This document shows, piece after piece, positions 46,198 through 63,609 of a stretch of 64,000 nucleotides of DNA. Where the stretch lies: assembly GCA_945830575.1 (NCBI GenBank), contig CALZZE010000007.1, positions 1-64,000 on the forward strand, in the 5' to 3' direction. The DNA is from an uncultured Subdoligranulum sp. Its GTDB lineage: Bacteria; Bacillota; Clostridia; Oscillospirales; Ruminococcaceae. Under the pieces are notes generated by a model. It worked only from the letters and a program-made list of their open reading frames with translations, made no database searches and was not told the origin of the DNA. The translations under genes and the position numbers were made by a program. Within the stretch, counting starts at the first letter, position 1, and each line of letters opens with the position of its first letter.

Positions 46198-46893
46198 TTA
46201 CCGCAGCCGCTTGTCGCACCGGACGGCCAGACGGGTGCCCACGCTCTGCATCACCTGCACCAGCACCACCAGCAGGGCGGTGGCGAAGTATTCCAGAATC
46301 CAGTTGAAGCGGTAGTAGCCGTAGTTGATGGCCACCTTGCCTAAGCCCCCGCCGCCAATGATGCCCGCCATGGCGCCGTAGCCCAGAATGGTGGTGGCGG
46401 CGATGGTGATGTTGGACACAAGGCTGGGCAGGCTTTCGGGGATCATGACCTTGGTGATGATCTGGAACGGCGTGGCGCCCATGCTCTGGGCGGCCTCGAT
46501 GACGCCGCCGTCCACCTCACGCAGGCTGGTCTCGATCAAACGCGCCACAAAGGGGAAGGACGCGATGACCAGCGGCACGATGGCCGCCTTGGTGCCGATG
46601 GAGGTGCCCACGATGAGCCGGGACAGCGGAATGACCATGATCATTAAAATAAGGAAGGGAATGGAGCGAAGCAGGTTGATGAACCCGTTGAGAAGCGTCA
46701 TGACCCACTTGGGCAGCGGGAGCACGCCGCCCTTCTCCCCTGCCACCAGCAGCACGCCCAGCGGCAGGCCGATGACCAGCGCCAGCGCGGTGGACAGCAC
46801 GGTGGAATAGATGGTGTCCCATGTTTCCATGGGGATGGTGGGCAGCACCTCCAGAAAGGTCTGCCAGTATTTTCCCGCAAAAAACTCGCTCAT
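46198..46893 (-). CDS. metI: Methionine ABC transporter, permease MetI
   Basis: 231 residues with five to six membrane segments. MetI family: DTIYSTVLSTALALVIGLPLGVLL at the N-terminus, VIEAAQSMGATPFQIITKVMIPESLPSL (EAA loop binding MetN) and ILGYGAMAGIIGGGGLGKVAINYGY. It forms the membrane pore for D/L-methionine uptake. Overlaps metN by 4 nt. The 190 nt beyond its stop, up to the dapF terminator, show no gene or clear terminator. Confidence 0.93.
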   Translation of the reverse strand: MSEFFAGKYWQTFLEVLPTIPMETWDTIYSTVLSTALALVIGLPLGVLLVAGEKGGVLPLPKWVMTLLNGFINLLRSIPFLILMIMVIPLSRLIVGTSIGTKAAIVPLVIASFPFVARLIETSLREVDGGVIEAAQSMGATPFQIITKVMIPESLPSLVSNITIAATTILGYGAMAGIIGGGGLGKVAINYGYYRFNWILEYFATALLVVLVQVMQSVGTRLAVRCDKRLR

Positions 46894-47891
46894 GCTTCCA
46901 CCTCCTCATAGCTGATGCCGGGGTACTCGGCAATGTAGGCCAGCGCACGGCGGGCGCCGTCCGCATCCTCCGGCAGAGCCAGCAGCATACTGCCCAGCGT
47001 CTGGCCGTGGACCTGCCGGGTGTCGGCGGCTAAGATGGACACCATGGCCTGACATTCCAACGCCAGCGAGGCCACCAGCGGTTTGTCGGTGGTGGCGGAG
47101 CCGTTGAAGGCCACCCGCACACAGCGCCGCCCCGGAATGGCCCCGCCGTGGGGCGCACCGGAGGGGAACACCAGCCGTTTGGCTGCATCGGATTTGGGAT
47201 GGCTGAAAATCTCCGCCACGGGGCCTTCCTCCACGACCTTGCCGCCGTCCAGAATGGCCACGTTGTTGCAGATCTCCTCCACCACGCTCATCTGGTGGGT
47301 GATGACCACCACCGTGATGCCCAGTTCCCGGTTGATTTTCTGAATGAGCTGCAAAATGGCGTGGGTGGTGTTGGGGTCCAGCGCACTGGTGGCCTCGTCA
47401 CACAGCAGCACCTTGGGGTCGGTGGCCAGGGCGCGGGCGATGGCGATGCGCTGCTTCTGTCCGCCGGACAGCTGGGCCGGGTAGGCGTTGGCCTTGTCGG
47501 GCAAACCCACCAGTTCCAGCAGTTCCTTGGCGCGCTGTTCCGCCTGCGCCTTGGGCGTGCCGGAAAGCTCCATGGGAAAGCAGATGTTTTTCAGACAGGT
47601 GCGCTGCATGAGCAGGTTGAACTGCTGGAAGATCATGGTGATCTCCCGCCGCTCGGCACGCAGCTGGGCGGGGGTCAGCGATTCCATGGCCTTGCCGCCC
47701 ACGGTGACGGAGCCCTCCTCCGGGCGCTCCAGCATGTTGATGCAGCGCACCAGCGTGGATTTGCCCGCGCCGGACATGCCGATGATGCCGTAAATGTCCC
47801 CGTCCCGGATGGTGAGGTTGATGTCCTGCAACGCCACGACGGTGCCGTTTTTGCCCTCGAAGCGTTTGGTCAGGTGTCGGATTTCAATCAT
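46890..47891 (-). CDS. metN: Methionine ABC transporter, ATP-binding protein MetN
   Basis: 333 residues. Walker A IIGMSGAGKSTLVRCINML, signature LSGGQKQRIAIARALAT, Walker B VLLCDEATSALDPNT, then a C-terminal NIL/ACT-like domain (residues about 255-333, with VRVAFNGSATTDKPLVASLA) that in MetN senses cytoplasmic methionine and inhibits transport. It follows metQ by 69 nt in the order metQ-metN-metI. Substrate is supported by the NIL domain, by MetQ and by the methionine-rich leader peptide upstream. Confidence 0.95.
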   Translation of the reverse strand: MIEIRHLTKRFEGKNGTVVALQDINLTIRDGDIYGIIGMSGAGKSTLVRCINMLERPEEGSVTVGGKAMESLTPAQLRAERREITMIFQQFNLLMQRTCLKNICFPMELSGTPKAQAEQRAKELLELVGLPDKANAYPAQLSGGQKQRIAIARALATDPKVLLCDEATSALDPNTTHAILQLIQKINRELGITVVVITHQMSVVEEICNNVAILDGGKVVEEGPVAEIFSHPKSDAAKRLVFPSGAPHGGAIPGRRCVRVAFNGSATTDKPLVASLALECQAMVSILAADTRQVHGQTLGSMLLALPEDADGARRALAYIAEYPGISYEEVEA

Positions 47892-47960: not shown

Positions 47961-48848
47961 TTAGAAAATAGCAACCACCGCGCCGGAGTAAGTTTCGTCG
48001 ATGAAGTTCTTGACCTGCTCGCTCTGCAGGGCAGCCAGCAAAGCCTGAATGGCGGGGTTGTCCTCGTTGCCTTCCTTGACCACCAGAATGTTGGCGAAGG
48101 TCTGGGCGGCCTCAGAGGAGGCGTCCTCCACGGCCAGCGCATCGGTGGCGGCGTTCAGGCCTGCCTCGGCGGCGTAGTTGCCGTTGATGACCGCGAAGTC
48201 CACATCAGCCAGCGTGCGGGGCAGCTGCGCGGCCTCCATCTCCACGATGTCCACGTTGTGGGGGTTCTCGGCGATGTCGTTCTTGGTGGCGGTCAGGCCG
48301 GCGCCCTCCTTCAGGGTGATGATGCCCTGGGCGGCCAGCAGCTGCAAAGCGCGGGCCTCGTTGGTGGTGTCGTTGGGAACGGCGATCTTTGCGCCGTCAG
48401 CCAGCTCGTCCAGCGTGGCGGTCTTGCCCGCGAACAGGCCGAACGGCTCGTAGTGGATGGCGCCCACGCTCACCAGATGGGTGCCGTTCTCCTCGTTGAA
48501 GGAATCCAGATAGGGGGTGTGCTGGAAGTAGTTGGCGTCCACCTCACCGCTCTCGGTGACCATGTTGGGCTGGACGTAATCGGTGTACTCGATAATTTCC
48601 AGCGTGATGCCCTGCTCGGCCAGAATGTCCTTGGCGACGCCGAGAATTTCGGCATGGGGCACCGGGGAGGCGGCCACCTTGAGGGTGGTGCCGGCCAGGT
48701 CGTTGGTCTCGGCGGCGGCTTCGCTGGAAACAGCCTCAGAGGAGGCGGCTTCGGAGGAGGCAGCGGCGGAGGAGGAGGCGGTGGAGCCGCAGGCGGCCAG
48801 GCTCAGGGCCAGCGCACCCGCGAGGACGGCGGAAATCAGCTTTTTCAT
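47961..48848 (-). CDS. metQ: Methionine ABC transporter, substrate-binding lipoprotein MetQ
   Basis: 295 residues. Lipoprotein signal with lipobox SLAAC (Cys20), Ala/Ser/Glu linker to about residue 50, then a NlpA/MetQ domain: LKVAASPVPHAEILGVAKDIL, IIEYTDYVQPN and FQHTPYLDSFNEENG. AAAAGGAGAATG precedes the ATG. First structural gene after the attenuator; the 108 nt between the terminator and its ATG contain one more GC hairpin (GGGGCAGC/GCTGCCCC) with no T-run on this strand. Lipid anchoring places it on the outer face of the membrane. Confidence 0.93.
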   Translation of the reverse strand: MKKLISAVLAGALALSLAACGSTASSSAAASSEAASSEAVSSEAAAETNDLAGTTLKVAASPVPHAEILGVAKDILAEQGITLEIIEYTDYVQPNMVTESGEVDANYFQHTPYLDSFNEENGTHLVSVGAIHYEPFGLFAGKTATLDELADGAKIAVPNDTTNEARALQLLAAQGIITLKEGAGLTATKNDIAENPHNVDIVEMEAAQLPRTLADVDFAVINGNYAAEAGLNAATDALAVEDASSEAAQTFANILVVKEGNEDNPAIQALLAALQSEQVKNFIDETYSGAVVAIF

Positions 48849-48956
48849 GGTTCATTCTCCTTTTGTTTCAAAATGTTCTTTCCCAGAATTCGCGGACCGC
48901 GGCAGTGGGGGGCCTTTTTCGGGGCAGCGGGCTTGCAGGCAGCTGCCCCTCCAAAG

Positions 48957-48985
48957 AAAAAAGCAGGATGCCGACGGCATCCTGC
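48957..48985 (-). terminator. Attenuator terminator of metQNI
   Basis: Minus strand perfect stem GCAGGATGCC-GTC-GGCATCCTGC followed by TTTTTTC. The left arm (48985-48976) can instead pair with GGCATTCTGT inside the leader peptide gene (49040-49031; 10 pairs, two of them G-U), which would abolish the terminator. Confidence 0.8.
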
Positions 48986-48999
48986 TTTCGGTTTCTCGG

Positions 49000-49092
49000 T
49001 TACGCCTCAGACGCGCAAGGAGAAACAGGCACAGAATGCCACAGCACACTGCACATGCACATCATCATGGAACGGCTGCTGCGATACTTCAT
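49000..49092 (-). CDS. Met/Cys-rich leader peptide of the metQNI operon
   Basis: A 30-codon gene with a proper ribosome site (AAAGGAG, 9 nt before the ATG). It starts MKYRSSRS and then has codons 9-14 Met-Met-Met-Cys-Met-Cys, and ends PCASEA with TAA 14 nt before the attenuator hairpin. Runs of the regulated amino acid before a terminator are the hallmark of translation-coupled attenuation. A ribosome stalled at codons 9-14 leaves the antiterminator strand (codons 18-21) free, while a ribosome that reaches the stop covers it. The regulated signal would be charged Met-tRNA and perhaps Cys-tRNA. No S-box or T-box is seen. Confidence 0.75.
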   Translation of the reverse strand: MKYRSSRSMMMCMCSVLWHSVPVSPCASEA

Positions 49093-49160
49093 GGTGCGTT
49101 TCTCCTTTCCTCAAAAGTTCCAAATTCCCATCGCTTTAGTCGGTTGAACTCTATGGGTTG

Positions 49161-49189
49161 AGTATAGACCTTTTGGCGGCATTTGTCAA
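49161..49189 (-). promoter_or_regulatory. Promoter of the metQNI leader
   Basis: Minus strand TTGACA (49189-49184), 17-nt spacer, TATACT (49166-49161): near consensus, so control must act after initiation, in keeping with attenuation. Confidence 0.8.
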
Positions 49190-49208
49190 CAGGTTTTTGA
49201 AATTTTTT

Positions 49209-50408
49209 TCAGCAAAGACCGCCAAGCCGGGTTTTGAAGTCCTCATACCCGAAGCGGCGCAGGCAGGTGAAGCGGCCGTCCGCCGCCCGCAGCCAGATGG
49301 CGGGCAGCGGCATGCCGTTGAAGGTGTTGTTTTTGCAGGTGGTGTAGATGGCCATATCGCCAAAGCAGAGAAGGTCCCCCTCCCGCAGCGGCGCGGCAAA
49401 GCGGTAGTCCCCGATGACGTCGCCGGACAGGCAGGTGGGCCCGCCCAGACGCACCGGGAACGCCGCGGCATCGTCCGCGCCCCACAGCGGCGGGCGGTAG
49501 GGCATTTCCAGCACATCCGGCATGTGGCAGGCGGCGCTGGTGTCCAGAATGGCAAAGGCGGTGCCGCCGTTTTGCCCCACGTCCAGCACGCGGGACACAA
49601 GAAAGCCCGCGTTGAGGGCCACCGCCTCCCCCGGCTCCAGATAGACCTGCACGCCCCACCGGTCACGGGCCGCCGTCAGGCAGCGCTCCAGCCGGGGGAG
49701 GTCGTAGCCGGGGCGGGTGATGTGGTGCCCGCCGCCCATGTTGAGCCACTGCATCCGGGGCAGCACATCCCCGAACCGCTCCCCCACTGCCTCCAGCGTG
49801 GTTTCCAGCGCATCGGCATCCTGCTCACAGAGGGTGTGGAAGTGCAGCCCGTCCAGCAGCGCCAGCAGCGCCGGGGTCATGGCCGCGTCCCATTGGGCGC
49901 GGGTGACGCCCAGCCGGCTGCCGGGGGCGCAGGGGTCGTAGATGGCGTGTCCCTCCTGCGTGGAACATTCCGGGTTGACGCGCAGCCCCACGCTTTTGCC
50001 CGCCGCTTTGGCCGCCGGGCCGAATTTTGCCAGCTGGTTCAGCGAATTGAACACAATGTGATCGGCGTATTGCAGCAGTTCGCTGAATTCCTCTGCCCGG
50101 TAGGCGGCGCAGAACACATGCACCTCTTTGCCGGGCATTTCCTCTGCGCCAAGGCGGGCCTCGTACAGGCCGCTGGCCTCGGTGCCCGCCAGATAGCCCG
50201 CCAGCAGCGGGTACACAGCAAAGTTGGAGAACGCCTTCTGCGCCAGCAGGATTTTGCAGCCGGTACGCGCCGCCACCCCGGCCAGCAGTTCCCCATTGCG
50301 GCGCAGGGCGGCTTCATCCAGCACATAGCAAGGGGTGGGCAGGGCGGCGAATACCGCCGCCGGGTCCCGCCCGGCCAGCGCCGCGAAGGGCGCCATGGCG
50401 CCGCCCAT
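49209..50408 (-). CDS. nspC: Carboxynorspermidine/carboxyspermidine decarboxylase
   Basis: 399-residue fold-type III PLP enzyme of the alanine racemase-like decarboxylases. It removes CO2 from carboxy(nor)spermidine to give spermidine or norspermidine. The PLP lysine lies in LPTPCYVLDEAALRRN and KILLAQKAFSNFAVYPLL, and other family blocks are FHTLCEQDADALE, WLNMGGGHHITRPGYD, YLEPGEAVALNAGF and GPTCLSGDVIGDY. The ATG overlaps the upstream stop by one base, so it is translated with the dehydrogenase. Last gene of the polyamine operon. Confidence 0.93.
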   Translation of the reverse strand: MGGAMAPFAALAGRDPAAVFAALPTPCYVLDEAALRRNGELLAGVAARTGCKILLAQKAFSNFAVYPLLAGYLAGTEASGLYEARLGAEEMPGKEVHVFCAAYRAEEFSELLQYADHIVFNSLNQLAKFGPAAKAAGKSVGLRVNPECSTQEGHAIYDPCAPGSRLGVTRAQWDAAMTPALLALLDGLHFHTLCEQDADALETTLEAVGERFGDVLPRMQWLNMGGGHHITRPGYDLPRLERCLTAARDRWGVQVYLEPGEAVALNAGFLVSRVLDVGQNGGTAFAILDTSAACHMPDVLEMPYRPPLWGADDAAAFPVRLGGPTCLSGDVIGDYRFAAPLREGDLLCFGDMAIYTTCKNNTFNGMPLPAIWLRAADGRFTCLRRFGYEDFKTRLGGLC

Positions 50409-51667
50409 CAATCCACCAGCGCCGGGGCGTGGCTCTCGCTGCGGGGCAGGCCGTACTTGTCCAGCGCGTCAAGGAACGGGTCCGGGTCAAACTCCTCCAC
50501 GGTATGCACGCCGGGGGTGGTCCATTGGCCGGTGAGCAGCATCAGCGCGCCGCACATGGCCGGTACGCCGGTGGTGTAGCTGACGGCCTGGCTCTCCACC
50601 TCTTTGTAACATTCCTGATGGTCGCAGACGTTGTAGATGTAGTAGGTCTTGTCCTGCCCGTCCTTTCTGCCGGTGAAGATGCAGCCGATGTTGGTCTTGC
50701 CGTGGGTGCGGGGGCCAAGGCTGGCCGGGTCGGGCAGCAGGGCTTTGAGGAACTTGATGGGCACGATTTCCCGGCCCTCGAACAGCACCGGCGCGGTGGA
50801 GAGCATCCCCACATCCTCCAGACAGCGCATATGGTCCAGATAGCTCTGGCCGAAGGTCATGAAGAACCGGATGCGCTTTGCCTCCGGGATGTTGGCGGCG
50901 AGGGACTCGATTTCCTCATGGTGGAGCAGGTACATGTCCTTGCGGCCCACCTTGTCAAAATCGTACTCCCGCTTGACGGACATGGCGGGAATCTCCACCC
51001 AATGCCCGTTCTCCCAGTAGCTGCCGGGGGCGGAGACCTCCCGCAGATTGACCTCCGGGTTGAAGTTGGTGGCGAAGGCGTAGCCGTGGTCGCCGCCGTT
51101 GCAGTCCAGAATATCAATGGTGTCGATTTCGTCAAACTCGTGCTTTTTGGCGTAGGCACAATAGGCCTGCGTCACGCCGGGGTCAAAGCCGCAGCCCAGC
51201 AGCGCGGTCAGGCCCGCGTCCTCGAACTTTTTGCGGTAGGCCCACTGCCAGCTGTAATCAAAGTAGGCGGAAAAGCCCGCCTCCTTGCAGCGCTTTTCGT
51301 AGATGGCCCGCCACGCGGGATCCTCGGTGTCCTCCGGCTCGTAGTTGGCGGTGTCCATGTAGTTGACGCCGCAGGCCAGGCAGGCGTCCATGATGGTCAG
51401 GTCCTGATAGGGCAGCGCGATGTTCATGACCAGATCGGGCTGGTAGGCCTTGATGAGGGCGATGACCTCCTCCACCTTGTCGGCGTCCACCTGCGCGGTG
51501 GTGAGCTTGGTGGCGGTTTTGCCCTTAAGCGCGGCGGCCAACGCGTCGCACTTGGATTTGGTGCGGCTGGCGATGCACAGCTCGGTGAACACCTCGCTGA
51601 CCTGACAGCATTTGCGGATGGCCACGTTGGCAACGCCGCCGCAGCCGATGACAAGGACTTTGCTCAT
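50408..51667 (-). CDS. Carboxynorspermidine/carboxyspermidine dehydrogenase (saccharopine dehydrogenase family)
   Basis: 419 residues. NADPH-dependent enzyme that condenses putrescine (or diaminopropane) with aspartate semialdehyde to carboxyspermidine. The Rossmann start VLVIGCGGVANVAIRKCC is followed by LVMNIALPYQDLTIMDACLA and LTALLGCGFDPGVTQAYCAYA, typical of the Lys9/CASDH group. Its neighbours nspC and speB point to the CASDH role and away from lysine metabolism. GAGGAGGAA lies upstream of the ATG. With agmatinase supplying putrescine, spermidine is the likeliest product. Confidence 0.9.
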   Translation of the reverse strand: MSKVLVIGCGGVANVAIRKCCQVSEVFTELCIASRTKSKCDALAAALKGKTATKLTTAQVDADKVEEVIALIKAYQPDLVMNIALPYQDLTIMDACLACGVNYMDTANYEPEDTEDPAWRAIYEKRCKEAGFSAYFDYSWQWAYRKKFEDAGLTALLGCGFDPGVTQAYCAYAKKHEFDEIDTIDILDCNGGDHGYAFATNFNPEVNLREVSAPGSYWENGHWVEIPAMSVKREYDFDKVGRKDMYLLHHEEIESLAANIPEAKRIRFFMTFGQSYLDHMRCLEDVGMLSTAPVLFEGREIVPIKFLKALLPDPASLGPRTHGKTNIGCIFTGRKDGQDKTYYIYNVCDHQECYKEVESQAVSYTTGVPAMCGALMLLTGQWTTPGVHTVEEFDPDPFLDALDKYGLPRSESHAPALVD

Positions 51668-54977: not shown

Positions 54978-55239
54978 GATTTTCGATCGCGACGGATTGA
55001 CAGAGTCTATATAGCAAACCACTTTTACCACTCTTATTGACCGTTTCACAAGTCTGCGCACAGCGCATTTCGGTTATGAAGTAACCAACTTATAAAATTT
55101 GAGCTTTTAACTCAATCAATAATGCGGCGCAACGCCGCCTTCGGCAGTGGACCCGGCTGTCCGTATGGCCTTAACTCCCTGTCGGAGTGGTCCGGGGATT
55201 GCATTGAAGACCCGTTTCTCTGTTTCTCGCTCCAAAATC
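54978..55239 (-). ncRNA. Candidate structured leader RNA of the polyamine operon
   Basis: About 262 nt between a strong promoter and the speA terminator. The two ends pair (GATTTT 55239-55234 with AAAATC 54983-54978; GCGA with TCGC; ACAGAG 55223-55218 with CTCTGT 55005-55000). Inside are at least five short hairpins: 55174-55188 (ACTCC/GGAGT), 55124-55138 (GCGGCG/CGCCGC), 55099-55115 (TTGAG/CTCAA), 55072-55086 (GGTTA/TAACC), 55056-55066 (GCGC/GCGC). It does not match the T-box, 6S, SRP, RNase P, tmRNA, 5S, cobalamin or lysine consensus as I know them. The layout aptamer-like domain, then terminator, then gene suggests a cis-regulator. Confidence 0.55.
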
Positions 55240-63419: not shown

Positions 63420-63590
63420 TTGCAAGCGTTTGATGCCTCTGTCCGTTAACCCGGAAGATTCTCCGCCATGGGCGGATTGCTTCCCCGGTGCGTAAATACG
63501 CTTTCCAGAGTTTCGTCCCGAACCGGTCCTTTTGCCTGAGAGATTTTGCTTTCCCCTTCGGCGCCGCGTGTGCGGTCTCTCCCGGTACGT
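63420..63590 (-). promoter_or_regulatory. Glycine riboswitch (tandem; second aptamer degenerate)
   Basis: Read on the minus strand, the first aptamer is nearly textbook: GGGAGAGACCG, GCGCCGAAGGGG with AAGC, then AAATCTCTCAGGCAAAAGGAC. A second, poorer aptamer follows (CACCGGGGAAGC, then GAGAATCTTCCGGG, closing in GGACAGAGGCA). Known gcvT-type switches bind glycine with two such units. Here the terminator that follows implies transcription control, and since most glycine switches turn genes on, glycine probably raises expression of the two membrane proteins. Confidence 0.9.
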
Positions 63591-63609
63591 TCATCCGAAA
63601 TATGGTGGT

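Follow-up and report, generated by a model that had tools for sequence, protein, structure and literature searches.

The leader locus and its parts

SAM riboswitches, T-boxes and repressors are the controls usually named for the methionine genes of Firmicutes. The window analysed here, which is the whole stretch of 64,000 nucleotides from an uncultured Subdoligranulum sp., holds the methionine transporter genes metQNI behind a short reading frame rich in Met codons, and the question is what controls this operon. The evidence presented below very probably identifies the control element as a trp/his-type ribosome-mediated transcription attenuator, which senses charged methionyl-tRNA and controls metQNI.

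All parts of the attenuator as well as metQNI lie on the minus strand of the window (Table 1). The promoter, described as near-consensus in an earlier note on this DNA, agrees with the consensus at 11 of 12 positions and was the sole promoter-like site reported by the promoter scan in positions 48500-49500, where shuffled sequences averaged 0.2 sites. Behind it the 30-codon leader gene with a good ribosome site was found as that note had described it: the start codon lies nine bases 3' of AAGGAG, and the frame translates as MKYRSSRSMMMCMCSVLWHSVPVSPCASEA followed by the stop codon. Also the run Met-Met-Met-Cys-Met-Cys had been placed correctly at codons 9-14; among the 115,169 six-residue frames that the window offers, a single one has six consecutive M/C residues, and none of 20 dinucleotide-shuffled windows has any. 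Region 2, the left strand of the antiterminator, begins at leader base 53, approximately one footprint edge past codon 14.

The terminator is present before metQ, but its stem is 14 bp according to the terminator scan, and the 10 bp claimed previously are the core of this stem. The same scan reported also a weak 5-bp site at 49040-49028, with 1.3 sites expected by chance. The identification of the downstream genes as metQNI agrees with their best NCBIfam matches, MetQ, MetN and MetI, all of which score under the curated cut-offs. Five leader peptides compared with NCBIfam gave no match.

Table 1. Positions in the window of the attenuator parts and of the genes behind them.
Feature	Position	Strand	Basis
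Sigma-70-type promoter, TTGACA-17-TATACT	49161..49189	-	Promoter scan and conservation in genus loci
Leader ribosome-binding site, AAGGAG	49102..49107	-	Sequence; SD-like motif in genus loci
Leader gene, 30 codons and stop	49000..49092	-	Kept across the genus as a short ORF with a Met run
Sensing codons 9-14, Met-Met-Met-Cys-Met-Cys (ATG ATG ATG TGC ATG TGC)	49051..49068	-	
Antiterminator left strand (region 2), GGCATTCTGT, codons 18-21	49031..49040	-	Pairing and fold predictions
Second antiterminator helix, left strand GTTTCTC	49020..49026	-	Stalled-ribosome fold
Second antiterminator helix, right strand GAGAAAC	48991..48997	-	Stalled-ribosome fold
Region 3, GCAGGATGCC, terminator 5' arm and antiterminator right strand	48976..48985	-	
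Intrinsic terminator, 14-bp stem, 3-nt loop GTC, T-run	48957..48989	-	Terminator scan (48989..48959)
Possible decayed remnant of a second uORF (QPGVRM type), weak	48885..48913	-	Local alignment to relatives
metQ, methionine-binding lipoprotein	47961..48848	-	NCBIfam best match
metN, ATPase	46890..47891	-	NCBIfam best match
metI, permease	46198..46893	-	NCBIfam best match

The absence of a visible S-box or T-box, remarked on in the earlier note, was borne out by the Rfam searches. At the leader no family reached its gathering score and a permissive search returned just three low-scoring matches, so neither a T-box nor an S-box was detected there. A T-box was rejected, as the leader gave no match to RF00230 and this model does find T-boxes elsewhere in the same genome. 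A SAM (S-box) riboswitch was rejected likewise, with no RF00162 match at the leader and one elsewhere in the same genome. Within the genus, the S-box is present in 32 of 35 genomes and T-boxes in all 13 genomes searched, and metK follows the S-box in each of the eight genus S-box loci loaded.

Two other RNA elements were observed in the window. Rfam RF02440 (SpF59, ldcC RNA) was matched at 55141-55193 on the minus strand; downstream of it polyamine genes are clustered, namely a decarboxylase-like gene, speE, agmatinase, carboxynorspermidine synthase and nspC. In addition, two adjacent glycine riboswitch aptamers are located at 63437-63594 on the same strand.

Conservation in Gemmiger

By the classification used, the window would belong to the genus of Gemmiger formicilis. 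The genus sample comprised 35 Gemmiger genomes, of which 32 include the Met-rich leader. The exact run was present once each in 30 of them and in none of the genomes outside the genus, 61 genomes being searched altogether; two leaders have a variant at the same place, MMMRMC in G032 and MMCMC in G011. The three genomes without the leader (G018, G024, G029) are drafts of 71-87% completeness and lack a full metQ match. In 31 of the 32 genomes metQ lies directly 3' of the leader, and the contig of the 32nd (G001) ends. A terminator hairpin with a T-run was found in all 31 leaders examined, and the short frame which the earlier note had proposed to look for in relatives thus stands, with its terminator, before metQ in 31 genus genomes.

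The consensus of the leader peptides is roughly M...R..GMMMCM[CY]S.LRQPV.A..CA..GA. The promoter TTGACA-17-TATACT and an SD-like motif were found 5' of the leader in 30 of the 30 genus loci tested, a set which included the window and left out G032 and G011. In three relatives (L088, L090, L142) a divergent regulator of the Rrf2 family (Pfam PF02082) adjoins the metQ leader, and in the window the position of this Rrf2-type gene is taken by nspC.

Alternative folds and pairing

The left arm of the terminator had been claimed to pair alternatively with codons 18-21 of the leader gene, and the pairing of GGCATTCTGT with GCAGGATGCC does comprise 10 of 10 pairs, two of them G-T. Folds were modelled with the edge of the ribosome assumed ten bases beyond the A-site codon. 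With the ribosome at codons 9-14 and the window RNA reaching up to the terminator 5' arm, an antiterminator of -31.2 to -33.7 kcal/mol is predicted, composed of this pairing together with GTTTCTC:GAGAAAC and an apical hairpin. With the ribosome from the stop codon onward, the predicted fold is the terminator. For window RNA starting at leader base 51 and reaching past the whole terminator, the best predicted fold includes the terminator (-43.9 kcal/mol), and the antiterminator would therefore have to win kinetically. Computation thus gives the parts of an attenuator, their conservation and two folds that are mutually exclusive.

The alternative stem was recovered also in the relatives: in the predicted pre-terminator fold of all 30 distinct sequences (the 31 leaders minus one duplicate, with G001, whose contig ends, omitted), leader and terminator 5' arm are joined by 7-13 pairs. 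An absence of the short frame or of this stem from relatives, given in the earlier note as grounds for refutation, was not observed. The mean number of pairs was 10.8, while the highest set mean among 200 shuffled sets was 6.4. At least seven pairs, a threshold chosen after the pair counts of the 30 sequences were known, were present in 30/30 observed sequences and in at most 17/30 in 200 sets of dinucleotide-shuffled leaders. An ungapped count with 31 sequences gave a mean of 8.29 out of 10 pairs in comparison to 6.50 with region 2 shuffled, and the observed value was not reached in 1,000 shuffled sets. For single species the signal varied: the duplex energy was better than that of shuffles at p<0.05 in just 9 of 31 species, and the z of the pre-terminator fold averaged -1.49, several species lying close to zero.

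Covariation, which the earlier note had named as a further check of the stems, appeared weakly at most, with a p-value of 0.54 in the partner-swap energy test and of 0.049 in the pair-count permutation (20 distinct rows), the core being nearly invariant. What this stem shows is conservation, with little covariation.

The same layout in other lineages

The pattern ATGATGATGTGYATGTRYN16CTG, run against 84,980 species genomes, produced 33 matches, of which 27 were from the genus, three from Synergistaceae, one from Lachnospiraceae, one from Pseudoalteromonas and one from an uncultured bacterium; the matches in Pseudoalteromonas and the uncultured bacterium appear to be chance. A metQ motif was found within 1,500 bases 3' of the run in 24 of the 27 genus matches. 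For two further ones (L169, L170) metQ is next to the leader on contigs of equal length, and the locus of the remaining one (L160) ends. A terminator and then metN-metI-metQ follow the leader in each of the three Synergistaceae and in the Lachnospiraceae. The run scan of viral contigs gave 22 matches. When 398 genomes of the phylum were searched with the pattern ATGATGATGTGYATG, 12 matches were found, and as judged by reading frames the window held the sole leader among them; a wide spread of the exact run was therefore rejected.

The Synergistaceae leaders (for example MLKNNIGINNMMMCMYTQGSSPDLAGA) are predicted to pair with the terminator arm by 7-10 pairs in all three cases, with a sequence unlike that of Gemmiger. 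This pairing was matched by 0.037 to 0.063 of shuffled leaders, the three sequences being closely similar to each other. The Lachnospiraceae leader has 13 Met in its first 27 residues, and its pairing with the arm had a p-value of 0.032 with the terminator limits redrawn. An unrelated Met-rich leader, which starts at GTG and is followed by a terminator, lies before metN in another family of the class (L295), and its predicted antiterminator of 11 bp had p-values from 0.005 to 0.012 depending on the length of leader given. An initial automatic test had counted 0 pairs between leader and arm for the Lachnospiraceae and two for L295, and the pairings appeared after the terminators were redrawn.

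In a survey of metN, 30 loci were loaded from 196 genomes of the class, and the start was located in 26, one of these being the window's own. Of the 25 others among these 26, just one (L295) bore a Met-rich uORF, and the arrangement is therefore not general; the survey covers just the region upstream of metN and would thus miss the leaders of operons that start with metQ. An Rfam T-box was detected in one of the 20 metN loci scanned and a T-box-like string in two others. A T-box-like string was seen by eye also at one metQ locus (L097).

Proposed mechanism and rival explanations

In the mechanism that we propose, RNA polymerase would transcribe the leader while a ribosome translates it, and whether this ribosome clears region 2 would depend on the supply of Met-tRNA. 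Where Met-tRNA is ample, the ribosome would get to the stop codon and cover region 2, and the terminator would form. With scarce Met-tRNA it would stall at codons 9-14 and leave region 2 free. Region 2 and the terminator 5' arm would then pair within a long hairpin of three parts while the 3' arm is still to be made, and the polymerase would continue into metQ. Translation of the leader, stalling, read-through and the kinetic precedence of the antiterminator are all presumed in this scheme, as is Met, possibly together with Cys, as the signal.

The least improbable of the rival readings concerns the nature of the signal. The same attenuator might respond to cysteine, or to Met and Cys together, as in 31 of 32 genus leaders (all but G032), and likewise in those of the three Synergistaceae and of the Lachnospiraceae, a Cys comes directly after the block of Met. 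However, the last Cys is replaced by Tyr in six of the 32 (G002, G008, G012, G016, G025, G031) and the first by Arg in one, whereas every one of the 32 retains three or more Met codons within the run. The leaders of the Lachnospiraceae and of L295 are overwhelmingly Met, and the operon serves methionine. With these substitutions in the genus leaders Cys as the main signal was judged less likely, and a cysteine or joint signal is on the whole improbable. Attenuation by Met or Cys, as the earlier note had it, is supported by computation, and the signal narrows towards Met.

Considerably less probable is an arrest peptide, where the peptide sequence and not the supply of codons would stall the ribosome on Met or SAM. 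The residues past the run (LRQPV.A) are indeed largely conserved in the genus, but their codons coincide with the left strand of the antiterminator, and RNA pairing can therefore explain their conservation. In addition, the leaders of the other lineages share the Met-rich run and not the remainder of the peptide. The reading with the very least credit is one of no regulation at all, in which a constitutive terminator and a chance Met-rich ORF would happen to lie behind a polyamine operon. It could appeal to nspC (49209-50411), which is located upstream of the leader on the same strand of the window, yet the promoter directly 5' of the leader, the short ORF and the alternative fold are all conserved, and in the three relatives checked the neighbour is the divergent Rrf2-type regulator.

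Another short reading frame before metQ and metY

Between the terminator and metQ, 27 of the 31 readable genus loci include a further short ORF with a pattern of roughly M..[GS][PS].[YC][KRG]QPG[VI]RM, followed by a stop or Cys; examples before Gemmiger metQ are L089 and L090. It is absent from G011, G012, G026 and the window, and because of the last it was missed in the earlier note, though 27 relatives have it. The possible remnant in the window (Table 1) gave p-values of 0.024, 0.094 and 0.768 in local alignment with the second uORF of three relatives. The search for QPG[VI]RM allowed any CGN codon for Arg, excluding AGA and AGG. Arg was CGA in 27 of 27 copies before metQ and CGT, CGG or CGC in the 13 other matches of the 40 rows. 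These matches away from metQ were rejected, all nine loaded of the 13 being inside rpoB.

Outside the genus, uORFs of the form FRxGRM were found before metQ in three of 17 other genomes with a metQ-like flank (L100, L103, L107). A gene-blind pattern search of 295 genomes of the order gave 114 matches in 92 genomes, against approximately 57 for a reversed control. Of the 30 loci loaded from it, 16 had the short ORF directly before metY (15, including L120 with its premature stop in the metY frame) or metN (one), while the other 14 look like chance. A stricter form of the motif fits 16 of the 30 loaded CGA loci, and with CGC, CGG or CGT it gave three matches in the 295 order genomes, none of them before a methionine gene as judged by the next ORF. 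Within the genus, seven of the 13 matches to the CGA pattern are directly before metY; a further locus (L338) has the uORF, its next frame being ambiguous.

The metY of the source genome (L141, contig 4) has its own promoter-like sequence and the frame MTYYFTRLLRANFRFGRM, ending in a stop codon, upstream. The metY sample of the class consisted of 70 loci, 30 of them loaded automatically and 40 hand-picked from the upper part of the match list. An upstream ORF with [FYW]R[FNC]GRM was present in 23 of the 70 (within L197-L256), the source genome included, and all 23 read CGA-ATG, though any Arg codon was allowed in the search; ORFs with bare GRM (L225 and L230 with CGA, L264 with AGG) were left uncounted. 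A terminator-like hairpin lies between the uORF and metY in one of the 23 loci (L244), and one is visible before metN in L132. Unmasking of the SD as the mechanism at metY was not supported, as accessibility rose by more than 0.1 in just seven of the 23 loci.

Selection on both codon and peptide would suggest, as far as sequence comparison goes, a programmed stall in which CGA occupies the P site and AUG the A site. For yeast, CGA-CGA pairs are reported to be inhibitory (PMC6301793); a stall of bacterial ribosomes at CGA-AUG is a guess. The Arg-Met uORF may be a new class, and searches for it and its peptide strings found no report in the openly licensed literature. The full proposal would be that Clostridia carry an undescribed class of methionine-responsive leader peptides, ...[FYW]-R-x-G-R-M with Arg CGA directly before Met AUG, immediately ahead of metY, metN or metQ, and that before Gemmiger metQ this takes the form QPG[VI]RM in tandem with the Met-run attenuator; we consider the arguments for and against it evenly balanced. 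For what may be a new kind of programmed stall, the uORF supplies a motif that is exact to the codon.

Two observations were made beside these loci. An NFRCGRM uORF lies before an amidohydrolase-like ORF, named by eye, on contig 76 of G005 (L343), and the same contig bears also a second metQ-like gene. A partly palindromic motif resembling ACCAACTT..AGGTAGG was noticed by eye next to the promoter in two metY loci (L197, L200) and one metQ locus (L107); it is possibly a repressor operator, and our guess would be an Rrf2-like one.

Comparison with known systems

We know of no Met-run attenuator, and a search of the openly licensed literature found no report of a Met leader attenuator. A genus which has both SAM riboswitches and T-boxes elsewhere, neither of these RNA families being detected at the leader, appears here to read Met-tRNA by means of the translating ribosome. 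Since every protein also begins with Met-tRNA, methionine makes an awkward signal, and separation of the supplies of initiator and elongator Met-tRNA becomes directly testable with this leader. The same layout stands before the same operon in Synergistaceae, in a Lachnospiraceae and in another family of the class.

Leader peptides with Cys codons are described, in the sections available of the papers concerned, for the cys operons of Actinobacteria (PMC1262725), for cysS with uORFC-8-2 of Rhodobacterales (PMC8632094) and in a mycobacterial study cited in PMC13236596. These share with the present leader the codons of a sulfur amino acid in the leader ORF, but have Cys runs and belong to other phyla; the mycobacterial cys leaders are, in the part of PMC1262725 available, without conserved terminator hairpins.

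Closest are the attenuators of the trp/his type. Leaders of the his type in Firmicutes (PMC2965389, PMC9413887) and a Leu-rich ilv attenuator peptide of S. aureus (PMC5794164) have already been published, and as far as the excerpts available of these sources go, such attenuators share a leader ORF in which codons for the controlled amino acid form a run, a terminator and an overlapping antiterminator. The metQNI leader has an ORF with a ribosome-binding site and predicted translation, a codon run for the regulated amino acid, an intrinsic terminator between leader and first gene, and an antiterminator built with the terminator 5' arm, which in the folds predicted before the 3' arm would be free on stalling. 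In comparison to the his and Leu attenuators of those excerpts, the run here is of Met and the target a methionine transporter. Attenuation is a classic tactic, and a Met-run leader before methionine transporter genes would be a new case of it.
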